From positions 1,116,001-1,180,000 of the forward strand of contig NZ_VZPG01000001.1 in the NCBI RefSeq assembly GCF_008801715.1: DNA of 64,000 bases. Reading direction: 5' to 3'. The notes under the pieces were generated by a model, which worked only from the letters and a program-made list of their open reading frames with translations, ran no database searches and was not told the origin of the DNA. Position numbers and translations under genes: made by a program. The first letter of the stretch is position 1, and each line of letters opens with the position of its first letter. The DNA comes from Pseudochrobactrum saccharolyticum (GTDB lineage: Bacteria; Pseudomonadota; Alphaproteobacteria; Rhizobiales; Rhizobiaceae). Positions 68 through 2,606 of this stretch are shown here, piece by piece.

Positions 68-1069
68 ATGAAAACCATTTTCACACCACTCTGTGTTGCC
101 AGCCTTCTTCTCGGCACTGCCGGTCTGGCACAGGCACATGTTTCGCTTGAAACAGCTCAGGCTAATGCAGGAAGCGGCTATAAAGCCGTCCTCAAAATCC
201 CGCATGGCTGTGAAGGTGCCGCGACCACACAGATCAATGTCAAAATTCCGGAAGGTTTCATTGCCGCTCAGCCGCAGATGAAAGCCGGATGGGATATTGA
301 AACTGTTAAATCCGACTACCAGCACAGCTATAAAGTGCACGGTAAAGACGTGAAAAACGGCGTGACCGAAGTGATCTGGAAAGGCGGCAAACTGCCGGGC
401 GATTTCTATGATGAATTCTCGGTTGTCGGCAAACTCGCAGCCTTCGACAAGGATACAACATTATCGTTCCCGACAATCCAGACCTGCGAAAACGGTAAAA
501 CCGAAAACTGGACGGATATCGCAGCAGAAGGCCAGAATCCGCATGATCTGAAAAACCCTGCGCCGCAATTGCTCGTGGCGGCTGCCACAAAACAGGCAAG
601 CCATGACGGCCACGGTGCGCATGGTGGCAATAGCGCCGAGGTGGTGACAGCCGGTGATCTTGAGCTTTCCGAAGCCCATAGCATCGCGACAATCCCGAAT
701 GCCCGCGTTGCAGGCGGCTATATTGTCATTACCAATAAGGGCAAAGAAGATGACCGCCTGATCGGCGGCACCACAGATGCAGCCGGAAAAGTTGAAATTC
801 ATGAAATGTCGATGAAAGACAATGTCATGAAAATGCGCAAGCTGAGCGAACCTCTGGCAATTCCCGCCGGTCAGACCGTGAAATTGGCACCAACCGGCTT
901 CCACATCATGTTTATGGATCTGGCCAAGCCGTTCAAAGAAGGTGAAACAGTCAATGTTGTGCTGGAATTTGAAAAAGCCGGAAAGGTTAATTTACCGTTT
1001 CACGTGAATCCATCCAAGGGTTCTTCCGGTAATGCTGGCGGCAAGGCCAATGACCATAGCCATCACTAA
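68..1069 (+). CDS. YcnI (DUF1775)-PCu(A)C fusion copper protein
   Basis: Predicted periplasmic copper-binding or copper-delivery protein of 333 aa. The ATG at 68 is preferred because AAGGA lies 7-8 nt upstream and the product starts with a signal peptide ending AQA. The mature protein would begin AHVSLE, and a histidine just after the cleavage site is the expected copper ligand of YcnI/DUF1775 proteins. A DUF1775 domain covers roughly residues 23-175. A His-rich linker (HDGHGAHGG) follows, then a PCu(A)C domain with H-x10-M (in IHEMSMKDNVMKM) and a later HIM. The tail is also His-rich (DHSHH). PCu(A)C proteins deliver Cu(I) to cytochrome oxidases. An in-frame ATG at 11 would destroy the signal peptide. 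Confident in the domains; the exact role is inferred. Confidence 0.9.
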   Translation: MKTIFTPLCVASLLLGTAGLAQAHVSLETAQANAGSGYKAVLKIPHGCEGAATTQINVKIPEGFIAAQPQMKAGWDIETVKSDYQHSYKVHGKDVKNGVTEVIWKGGKLPGDFYDEFSVVGKLAAFDKDTTLSFPTIQTCENGKTENWTDIAAEGQNPHDLKNPAPQLLVAAATKQASHDGHGAHGGNSAEVVTAGDLELSEAHSIATIPNARVAGGYIVITNKGKEDDRLIGGTTDAAGKVEIHEMSMKDNVMKMRKLSEPLAIPAGQTVKLAPTGFHIMFMDLAKPFKEGETVNVVLEFEKAGKVNLPFHVNPSKGSSGNAGGKANDHSHH

Positions 1070-1077
1070 TTTCTGTT

Positions 1078-1103
1078 TCTCCGAAACCGTATCGGTTCGG
1101 AGA
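1078..1103 (+). terminator. hairpin after the copper gene
   Basis: TCTCCGAA and TTCGGAGA form an 8-bp stem with an inner CCG/CGG pair. It begins 8 nt after the stop codon and is followed by TAAAAGA rather than a clean U tract, so it is a weak terminator or a 3'-end stabiliser. A second stem, GCGGAGCGCCG with CGGCGCTTCGC (one G-U pair), lies at 1116-1144. Confidence 0.45.
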
Positions 1104-1522
1104 TAAAAGACTAAGGCGGAGCGCCGGTCATATCGGCGCTTCGCATTGTGATTCTGGAACCGCTCCCTTTTGCCTGTCCTGTTTACAGGCTTCTGCATGA
1201 GGCGGGACGTCGCAGAGCTTAAAAATCCGGCCGGAATGTCGTTCAATCCGGCCAGCTGCGACAATCACGCAAAACATATACGGATTCATATAGATAGCAT
1301 TGCATTTTAGAATAAAAACATGAGTAAAATACTCTGGAATTATTCTAAGCTATTGAAATAAGAACACTTTTCTAAATAAATGCTGAAAATTAGGTTTGAC
1401 AACCGACCGTTTTCACCGGCATATTCCCGCTGTCAGAGCTTTCGGGAGGGATACTTCCGGCTCGTGGCAATAAATTCAACCTTTGATGTTTGGGCCTTGA
1501 ACCCGCTCTATTGGAGGACCTC
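1104..1522. other. intergenic region with a promoter-like site before the leader ORF
   Basis: About 420 bp without a convincing gene. It holds a second hairpin (1116-1144), then an AT-rich stretch (about 1270-1390). A sigma70-like TTGACA is at 1396-1401, with GCATAT at 1419-1424 after a 17-bp spacer. If used, transcription would start near 1431 and give a leader of about 90 nt before the small ORF at 1523. The 92-codon open frame running through 1380-1658 has no ribosome binding site. Confidence 0.5.
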
Positions 1523-1633
1523 ATGTTTGGTCAGGCACTTTACCGCCCAAGGGCGGTACTATCGTCGCGCCCTCAGCCGCGACGCATATTCATCGCTCCT
1601 TCGCGTCCGTTACAGATCGGATGCCGCCCATGA
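1523..1633 (+). CDS. 36-aa Arg/Pro-rich leader ORF
   Basis: ATG at 1523 follows GGAGG with good spacing (ATTGGAGGACCTCATG), one of the best ribosome binding sites in the window. The frame runs 36 codons to a TGA that overlaps the next ATG as ATGA (1630-1633). The peptide has 7 Arg and 6 Pro, begins MFGQALYRPRAV and ends IGCRP. No signal or membrane segment is seen. The DNA carries two perfect short hairpins (1541-1558 and 1563-1584), and its segment 1584-1593 is complementary to the start of the next gene. That suits a regulatory leader peptide or translational coupler better than a functional small protein. I recognise no family. Confidence 0.6.
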   Translation: MFGQALYRPRAVLSSRPQPRRIFIAPSRPLQIGCRP

Positions 1634-1639
1634 ATATGC
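1541..1639 (+). promoter_or_regulatory. stacked hairpins; start codon of next gene sequestered
   Basis: Four pairings are visible. TACCGCC/GGCGGTA (1541-1558) has a CAAG loop. CGTCGCG/CGCGACG (1563-1569 with 1578-1584) encloses 8 nt. GCATATTCAT (1584-1593) is exactly complementary over 10 nt to ATGAATATGC (1630-1639), which holds both candidate ATGs of the next gene. GCGTCCG/CGGATGC (1603-1609 with 1618-1624, one G-U) nests inside that helix. A ribosome finishing the leader ORF would open the 10-bp helix at its stop codon. This is consistent with translational coupling, attenuation or a thermosensor; the mechanism is inferred. Confidence 0.5.
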
Positions 1640-2136
1640 AGGTCAGAAATCTCTTTGAAACATCCAGTCATTATTTCGAGCGGCAGGCTGAAAAGCTGGT
1701 GCTTGAAGGCTATCGCCACTGGACATCCGGCTTCGAAACCGGATCGGTTATTCCGTGGGAAATGGCCTGGACGATTTACACTCAGGAGCTCGGCCTCGAT
1801 AAAGCCAAACTCGCGCTGGCCGAACTCTCCCATTTCATCCGCACCCTGCATTTTTGTGCAGCTTGTCAGCTCAAGGCCTTTCCTTATGGTTCGATGCATA
1901 TCTGCCGTGAAGAATGCCTGCTGATGGGACTGATCTCCGCCTTGCAAAACGGTGACGATACAACCCGTGATGCCTGTCTGGATGCTCTGGTAACCGGCAG
2001 CCGTGTCGCGGAAGTTAAAAAAGCCGCGCAGGATTATGCACAGGTCATGGCAGAGCTCGATCAGGTGCTGCTGCCTATCCCTCATTACGCCGTTGCCTGT
2101 GTTTTATCACCGGCAGGGCACAAAACCTTTCACTGA
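1630..2136 (+). CDS. conserved-looking hypothetical protein with Cys/His cluster
   Basis: A 168-aa protein of unknown function if started at ATG 1630, which overlaps the leader ORF stop; ATGs at 1621 and 1636 are also in frame. The sequence is mostly helical and soluble, with no signal peptide or membrane segment. A central block HFCAAC...MHICREECL holds four or five closely spaced Cys and two His, a plausible metal or redox site. It follows a copper gene, but nothing proves they are co-regulated. The strand opposite is also open for 170 codons but has no ribosome binding site and no better features. I do not recognise the family. Confidence 0.7.
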   Translation: MNMQVRNLFETSSHYFERQAEKLVLEGYRHWTSGFETGSVIPWEMAWTIYTQELGLDKAKLALAELSHFIRTLHFCAACQLKAFPYGSMHICREECLLMGLISALQNGDDTTRDACLDALVTGSRVAEVKKAAQDYAQVMAELDQVLLPIPHYAVACVLSPAGHKTFH

Positions 2137-2239
2137 TATGAAGAGCTGAAACTTCTTTCATAACTTTACCATGATTTTAGCCCAGTGACTGCGAGCGAAG
2201 CGCTCCGGATCCGCGGGCAAAACCGACAGGACGAATACA

Positions 2240-2434
2240 ATGAATGCAAAAACTGAAAAGCGCTTGGGTATTATGGCTGCGCTCCTGCTGACCGCAGCAA
2301 TGTTTGTGGCGCCTAATCCGATCCAGCAACAGCAGAATTTTCATTTTCTCAGCATGACTGAAGAAGCTGTCAAAGATGTACCAGCTCTGATTGTTGTTGC
2401 GCAAAACCATCAGTCCAGTTCAGCTATCCGCTAA
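2240..2434 (+). CDS. small secreted or membrane-anchored hypothetical protein
   Basis: 64 aa, starting at ATG 2240 after AGGACG about 7 nt upstream. Residues 8-26 form a hydrophobic helix (IMAALLLTAAMFVAPNP) after a Lys/Arg-containing N terminus, so it is either a signal peptide or a single membrane anchor. The remainder is short and polar (QQQQ, then a Gln/Ser-rich tail). No family recognised. It ends 62 bp before the nested terminator shared with the convergent L,D-transpeptidase gene. Confidence 0.45.
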   Translation: MNAKTEKRLGIMAALLLTAAMFVAPNPIQQQQNFHFLSMTEEAVKDVPALIVVAQNHQSSSAIR

Positions 2435-2495
2435 CAGCACCCATTTGAACTATCATATTTGATCCTTTTTTTATCACTGTCCTCCCAAGACAGAA

Positions 2496-2606
2496 AAAAG
2501 CCGCGCTAAAGCATTTTCAGCAAAAGTGGGAACCGGTTTTGCATATGAAAATGCGTAAAATAAATAGCCGGAGCATTTAAAAATGCTCCGGCTCAGCGCG
2601 GCTTTT
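2496..2606. terminator. bidirectional terminator with a repeat element in its loop
   Basis: AAAAGCCGCGCT (2496-2507) and AGCGCGGCTTTT (2595-2606) are a perfect 12-bp inverted repeat flanked by A and T runs, the signature of a bidirectional intrinsic terminator. The 87 nt between them hold a RIME-like element with its own 12-bp hairpin (2566-2577 with 2582-2593). It lies between convergent genes ending at 2434 and 2625. Confidence 0.65.
2508..2593. repeat. RIME-like palindromic repeat, copy 1
   Basis: Contains the core AAAGTGGGAACCGGTTTTG flanked by GCATTTTCA and GAAAATGC, then ATGCGTAAAA and a second palindrome AGCCGGAGCATT/AATGCTCCGGCT. Related copies are at 16061, 30253, 36669 and 53273. 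The two-palindrome layout matches the Rhizobium-specific intergenic mosaic elements known from Rhizobiales genomes. This copy sits inside a terminator loop. Confidence 0.7.

Follow-up and report, generated by a model that had tools for sequence, protein, structure and literature searches.

The window analysed here (64,000 nucleotides of the Pseudochrobactrum saccharolyticum genome) contains, near its beginning, a gene for a 168-aa protein whose start codon is overlapped by a short upstream open reading frame (uORF); ahead of this uORF lie an Irr-box-like site, a putative promoter and a conserved RNA element (Table 1). Just upstream of the locus, positions 68-1069 encode a single protein that combines a DUF1775 domain with a copper chaperone PCu(A)C domain.

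Table 1. Features of the leader region and the gene that follows it (positions in the window; MFE of 1472-1522 where an MFE fold is given).
Feature	Position	Strand	Basis or remark
Irr-box (ICE)-like site TCTGGAATTATTCTAAG	1333..1349	+	11/14 positions of the presumed consensus
Putative promoter, TTGACA 1396-1401 and CATATT 1420-1425	1396..1425	+	by eye
Conserved RNA element, 48 nt (models R1/R2)	1472..1519	+	50.3 bits with R1, 48.8 bits with R2; 7/7 genus genomes
P1 5' strand, anti-SD CCUUUGAUG	1480..1488	+	MFE; pairing kept across copies
P2 hairpin, 1491-1494 with 1502-1505; heptaloop CCUUGAA 1495-1501	1491..1505	+	MFE and copies
P1 3' strand UAUUGGAGG, includes uORF SD GGAGG	1509..1517	+	MFE and copies
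uORF Shine-Dalgarno (SD) GGAGG	1513..1517	+	ahead of uORF ATG 1523
uORF, 36 codons, reads MFGQALYRPRAVLSSRPQPRRIFIAPSRPLQIGCRP	1523..1633	+	stop TGA 1631-1633 overlaps gene ATG 1630 (ATGA)
7-bp perfect hairpin within uORF	1541..1558	+	fold computation
6-bp perfect hairpin within uORF	1564..1583	+	fold computation
Start-sequestering helix, upstream arm	1584..1593	+	10-bp complementarity, genus alignment
Start-sequestering helix, downstream arm over gene ATG	1630..1639	+	10-bp complementarity, genus alignment
168-aa protein of unknown function, CAAC and CREEC motifs	1630..2136	+	homologues in 25/61 genomes searched

The 168-aa protein matched no Pfam or NCBIfam model at E ≤ 1 and had no convincing relative in the PDB (the sole match had an E-value of 0.58). 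It is 92% identical in relatives that include P. kiredjianiae and P. asaccharolyticum, and across 18 members of its family (hereafter the window family) the residues C92-R93-x-E95 are nearly invariant to invariant. In some loci, window-family genes were seen by eye to adjoin genes for iron-binding proteins or imelysins. A locus of the Pseudochrobactrum type, again with 92% protein identity, also occurs in an entry titled Bacillus subtilis SK6B4 (L028; JAHREI010000001.1), which is probably mislabelled or contaminated.

The uORF and the start-codon helix in Pseudochrobactrum

The local features from which the original prediction started are all present in the sequence: a 36-codon ORF behind a GGAGG, with seven Arg and six Pro codons and an ATGA overlap with the next start; two perfect hairpins within that ORF; and an exact complementarity between its later part and the start region of the following gene, which folding confirms as a 10-bp helix (1584-1593 with 1630-1639) that encloses one more hairpin. 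The fold of the surrounding 161 nt (1500-1660) reaches -56.6 kcal/mol, against a mean of -43.95 kcal/mol for shuffled sequences (z = -3.45; 0 of 200 shuffles as low). By eye, the gene at 1630 is without a clear SD of its own just upstream.

The uORF occurs with identical length and the same overlap in all seven Pseudochrobactrum genomes. Substitutions among these genomes fall mostly at third codon positions, and pN/pS, summed over genome pairs, is 0.32 in the uORF's own frame and 1.43 and 1.10 in the other two. At the level of sequence comparison, this supports a real uORF that is under coding selection within the genus and is positioned for translational coupling.

By the original prediction, conserved uORF codons and compensatory changes in the two helix arms among relatives would count in its favour; the codons are conserved within the genus, but two-sided pair changes in 1584-1593/1630-1639 are absent among the seven genomes. 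All ten positions pair in six of them and nine of ten in the remaining one (G004), which has one change to G-U and one broken pair. Because covariation is lacking, and because the uORF codons and the gene start constrain the same bases, conservation of the helix within the genus is weak evidence for it. When the interior of the uORF was shuffled, the start region of the native sequence proved the less accessible in all seven genus sequences (of 60 shuffles, 0 to 7 gave a value as low as the native one or lower); outside the genus, only 4 of 23 other rows (22 places) had at most 5 of 60 shuffles at or below it. The start-sequestering helix looks like a genus-level feature, and by this accessibility test it is unsupported as a general one. 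The idea that ribosomes must reach the uORF stop in order to expose the next ATG is, then, plausible within Pseudochrobactrum, where the helix is real; in other genera the helix is mostly absent.

A conserved fold over the Shine-Dalgarno sequence

The block CCTTTGATGT-TTGGGCCTTGAACCC-N-ATTGGAGG, which lies ahead of the uORF, also occurs upstream of window-gene homologues in other genera, and a pattern search of 61 genomes found it before iron genes unrelated to the window gene. In the isolated 51-nt window element, the MFE structure is exactly P1 plus P2, at -10.5 kcal/mol. Its stability is unremarkable (z = -0.73, with 44 of 200 shuffled sequences doing as well), and in a longer fold of the window (1430-1660, 231 nt) other pairings are preferred, P1 being absent from the MFE. 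Across 107 copies, the MFE contains the P1 core in 76 and P2 in 86; shuffling the 5' strand as a control left the P1 core in 42 of 1070.

Conservation of the fold was measured on 84 fetched matches (81 distinct rows), which were aligned with a model lacking the outer helix. In the 81 distinct rows, 88.4% of the cells in P1 and P2 are paired, against at most 57.9% in controls in which the structure was slid along the alignment. Cells with a double change number 52; shuffles give 16.6 ± 3.4, none of 500 reaching the real value, and the slid versions give at most 26. Of the 52, 36 are in P2. Two of the five structure measures fail to stand out. The number of pairs changed on both sides is reached by 79 of 500 shuffles and exceeded by a +2 slide; the number of further pair types is reached by 15 of 500 shuffles, and slides of +1 to +3 come close to it, match it or go beyond it.

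Because the SD strand of P1 (AUUGG) is nearly invariant, support for this helix is mostly one-sided. Its partner strand varies almost only between C and U opposite G and between G and A opposite U, which is the pattern that would be expected if pairing were being kept. The loop reads C C U U (G/U) A (A/C), its columns (24-30) being nearly invariant while the stem changes. The loop might also pair with the SD (CCUUGAA with UUGGAG, as a pseudoknot or an alternative hairpin); the two are mostly pairable except at one position (canonical fraction 0.17 for columns 28-42 and 0.54 for 24-46), and since neither side varies appreciably, the alignment speaks neither for nor against such pairing. The first start codon follows the SD hexamer by 5-8 nt in 101 of 118 rows, and by 6 nt in 65. 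One trait of riboswitches is thus found here: the fold is conserved, covers the SD and stands ahead of genes of related function.

Distribution of the element

Two covariance models were used to search for further copies. R1, which describes the inner stem only, was built from 15 examples (nine from the window family, three of FbpA/FutA type, two before bfd and one DUF2325-like), among them a copy of the window's own place; it matched in 112 of 397 Hyphomicrobiales genomes. Within the own genome it matched at two places, 1472-1519 and one before bfd. This second copy (L090; G000:C2:420921-420966) precedes bfd-bfr and has a 55-codon uORF of its own that overlaps the bfd start. R2, which describes both helices, matched in 15 of 41 relatives, including all seven of the genus; in a 299-genome sample of the phylum it matched in 10 genomes, all of them Hyphomicrobiales, and in a 385-genome sample of the class the own genome was the sole match. 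Searches spanning more than 40 genomes were run with stricter filters and a small number of scored candidates per genome, so that absences are not firm, and the restriction to Hyphomicrobiales holds only at the search sensitivity used.

Rfam 15 contains no covariance model that matches at the element, either in window positions 1000-2600 (E ≤ 1) or in 15 fetched loci (E ≤ 0.1). The only Rfam match within 1000-2600 is a sub-threshold one to the Brucella sRNA CI27 at 2499-2600 (34.9 bits, with a gathering cut-off of 59.8; E = 1.8e-5). In four genomes of one genus (g68), the space between divergent genes holds two copies of the element, back to back and on opposite strands (L121/L129, L127, L112, L120/L132). 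One window-gene homologue (L019, genome G008) has a HemP/HmuP-like small ORF (...YRLKITRQGKLILNK, by eye) directly upstream, and G008 gave no match with R2.

Genes and promoters associated with the element

The genes behind the element were tallied for 117 distinct copies, comprising strong copies among the matches listed and 14 of the 15 training places. These correspond to 118 rows, since L015 and L094 are one place, and the 35 rows of the window family to 34 places; the training copy L055 was left out, and L039, where the pattern occurs ahead of a SufA-like gene, belongs neither to the training set nor to the counts. Gene groups are BLAST clusters, in each of which one representative was checked, the window family excepted. 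Five protein groups lie behind 112 of the 117 copies: substrate-binding proteins (SBPs) of FbpA/FutA type (51), the window family (34), imelysins (13), bfd (10) and cupredoxins (4). The remaining five are an FeoA gene followed by an FeoB-like ORF, an Fe-S_biosyn (Fe-S biosynthesis) gene, a DUF2325 gene and two cut-short copies. None of the 15 training examples stood before an imelysin, cupredoxin or FeoA gene.

The SBP representative matched FbpA (1q35; E = 5.6e-112) and further iron-binding proteins in the PDB, and its iron label derives from this match to proteins of known structure; in Pfam it matched general SBP models, and in NCBIfam other substrate families, far below their cut-offs. The imelysin and cupredoxin representatives matched Peptidase_M75 and Cupredoxin_1 in Pfam, and FTR1-like ORFs (one checked) follow two of the four cupredoxins. 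The bfd representative, with no match in NCBIfam or the PDB, is labelled from a Pfam match below cut-off (Fer2_BFD) and from the bacterioferritin gene that follows bfd in L090.

Farther upstream, TTGAC tends to stand some 40-70 nt ahead of the element in the copies (a tendency noted without a control) and lies 76 nt before it in the window. Sites scoring at least 11/14 against what we take to be the Irr-box (ICE) consensus occur within 220 nt upstream of 86 of 116 copies, where 2.6 would be expected from shuffles. Most copies would in this respect qualify for the Irr regulon by their putative ICE-like sites. Irr boxes are described as lying near the promoters of target genes, and most iron-dependent genes of Rhizobiales as being Irr-regulated (PMC3413700). 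This link supports an iron regulon and leaves the direction of control unsettled, because in the species covered by that account Irr represses under iron depletion (PMC3413700). Irr acts on transcription, as described there; the element would be a second, RNA-level feature of the same genes.

Overlapping uORFs across genera

Before FbpA/FutA-type genes, the SD of the element starts the gene itself, with no uORF, in 51 of 51 copies. Elsewhere, 28 rows (27 places) have a uORF whose stop overlaps a main start, by exactly -4 in 17 of them; in this test every ATG or GTG in frame within the main ORF was accepted as its start. The first ORF behind the element is a short overlapping one in 20, the main ORF in 6 and neither in 9 of the 35 window-family rows; the corresponding numbers are 6, 3 and 1 for the 10 bfd rows, and 2, 5 and 6 for the 13 imelysin rows. 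The stop/start overlap typical of coupled cistrons is kept across relatives, making these putatively coupled. Three imelysin leaders of one genus (L074, L089 and L150; g104) have mutually similar first ORFs, M(A/S)DFYGAF...MVGLCFYEP, which may encode a small protein and not a relay.

When 43 uORF peptides were compared, only three, all of this genus, matched that of the window; the next best match had an E-value of 0.02 over 13 residues, and conservation of the peptide was absent among the 40 from elsewhere. On the simplest interpretation, the element would gate any ORF started by its SD, and a uORF, where present, would pass this control on by coupling.

Comparison with known systems

A leader RNA that gates an SD is of a known kind; the fold and the loop, here tied to iron, were not found described, and a search of the open-access literature returned no published description of the element. 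The closest arrangement that we found comes from the same order: in the SAM-II riboswitch leader of Sinorhizobium meliloti metA, the SD is likewise sequestered in a folded leader with a start further downstream (PMC9373788). The metA case differs in ligand and genes, and its AUG2 lies 74 nt downstream in frame, whereas the window has a separate, overlapping uORF.

HmuP is reported to be a post-transcriptional activator in E. meliloti (PMC9131926), and the HmuP-responsive elements (HPRE) described in heme-receptor 5'UTRs likewise concern post-transcriptional control of iron acquisition in a member of this order (PMC9131926, PMC9241770). The HPRE given for C. violaceum consists of GCCAGCC-like repeats, and with this HPRE as the only reference, 6 of the 118 element rows have GCCAGCC no more than 60 nt away. 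The own assembly (G000) has no hemP (PF10636) match, and among the 397 genomes hemP is as frequent with the element (40 of 112) as without it (102 of 285; Fisher p = 1.0). On this co-occurrence, and with the C. violaceum HPRE as reference, HmuP acting through such elements is disfavoured as the mechanism. Among metal-related uORFs, the copper uORF CruR has a conserved peptide that is thought to matter, whereas the peptides of element-linked uORFs vary between genera. By description, CruR, of Bordetella, is likewise a uORF in a metal-related operon (PMC9426467).

Discussion

Sequence comparison points to a conserved RNA element whose fold is kept, which sits on an SD, which is associated with iron genes, and which in some copies precedes a uORF that overlaps the next gene. 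We think it probable that this leader is a two-stage translational gate belonging to the iron regulon, with the uORF serving as a coupling relay. In the first stage, P1, in which an anti-SD YYGAU pairs with AUUGG and which encloses P2 and the CCUUGAA heptaloop in an element of 40-odd nt, would hide the SD of the first cistron; the binding of a ligand or a trans-acting factor, most simply through the nearly invariant loop, would decide whether P1 opens. Because the associated genes are mainly import genes, P1 would probably stay closed under iron sufficiency and open under iron scarcity. In the second stage, at the window gene, ribosomes translating the uORF would open the helix that covers the main ATG and pass on to the gene at the ATGA overlap; before other genes, such as those of FbpA/FutA type, the same element would drive the main ORF directly. 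That iron is the signal, that control runs in this direction, that the loop is recognised and that the cistrons are coupled is what we infer from these features. Speaking against the gate are the structural points given above (mostly one-sided support for P1, two measures that fail to stand out, unremarkable stability of the isolated element, P1 missing from the longer fold) and the limited reach of the start helix; in addition, bfd is not an uptake gene, and in some rows (9/35 of the window family, 6/13 of imelysin and 1/10 of bfd) the first ORF is neither the main one nor an overlapping one.

The original prediction had also allowed for a metal sensor. That guess pointed the right way, because the genes behind the element are iron genes. 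The likely switch lies in front of the uORF, on its SD, rather than inside the uORF. Stalling at the Arg/Pro codons fared less well. A ribosome halted there would mask 1584-1593 and free the gene start, and the uORF codons are indeed under selection in the genus in which the helix is present; but the start helix is mostly absent elsewhere, the peptides of other genera do not resemble that of the window, so that the conservation across relatives expected of a stalling attenuator ends with the genus, and none of the 51 FbpA/FutA-type copies has a uORF in which a ribosome could stall. Since the peptides differ and these copies lack a uORF, stalling is unlikely as a general mechanism, and we give attenuation very little chance at this locus. 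Plain, unregulated coupling, in which the uORF merely supplies an SD to a gene without a clear one of its own, is scarcely more probable, as it would leave unexplained a loop and an anti-SD strand that are conserved across the order before iron genes.

A thermosensor had been proposed as well, and P1 could be a weak SD-covering helix that melts with temperature; the SD does lie under a helix rich in G-U pairs. FourU thermometers have four U opposite the SD, and 8 of 118 rows have UUUU within columns 5-20, the window having three U. ROSE-like, ROSE-G and fourU thermometers likewise cover the SD with an imperfect helix (PMC12857270, PMC11182007), and ROSE types are reported before ABC-transporter genes (PMC12857270). 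The anti-SD motifs given as defining ROSE-like and ROSE-G are rare or absent in the element, with U(U/C)GCU opposite the SD (columns 5-20) in 1 of 118 rows and CUGCU in none, while the element has a conserved heptaloop; melting alone fails to explain this nearly invariant loop together with the iron gene set. A thermometer stays a rival, and an unlikely one. Less probable still is that the block is a DNA operator for a transcription regulator or encodes a conserved short peptide, FDVWALNPxDW. High sequence conservation would suit both, and the peptide's frame is open in several loci, but nested pairing is kept through changes and G-U pairs and the distance to the start codon is near-constant; as a primary explanation the peptide was rejected on this pairing and because the spacer of L016 is one base shorter (by eye), which breaks the frame.

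A further reading is a form of the two-stage gate and does not exclude it: a trans-acting RNA or an RNA-binding protein may recognise the loop and the SD, the element then being a binding site and not itself a ligand sensor. The near-invariance of loop columns 24-30 while the stem changes, and an SD strand that is invariant beyond what an SD needs, are consistent with such a factor; no candidate for it was found, and HmuP/HemP does not fit. We regard this version as possible but rather doubtful. Returning to the gate in its broadest form, the element could be an order-wide iron-, Fe-S- or heme-responsive translational switch, in which the heptaloop RNA would sense the iron state directly, as a riboswitch, or through a dedicated RNA-binding factor, and would control a main ORF or a relay uORF. 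We advance this proposal, of a bacterial element whose role would resemble that of the iron-responsive element in animals, tentatively, as something a little short of an even prospect.

In the literature consulted on this order, iron control is described as transcriptional, through Irr and RirA, with HmuP in addition. If the present reading is true, an RNA layer over the starts of FbpA/FutA-type, imelysin, cupredoxin, FeoA and bfd genes would amount to a second arm of iron control, and the sensor of this second arm can be sought directly. The arrangement suggests that short uORFs are exchangeable relays by which one SD-gating element controls different genes, and a protein family without a Pfam model gains an iron context.
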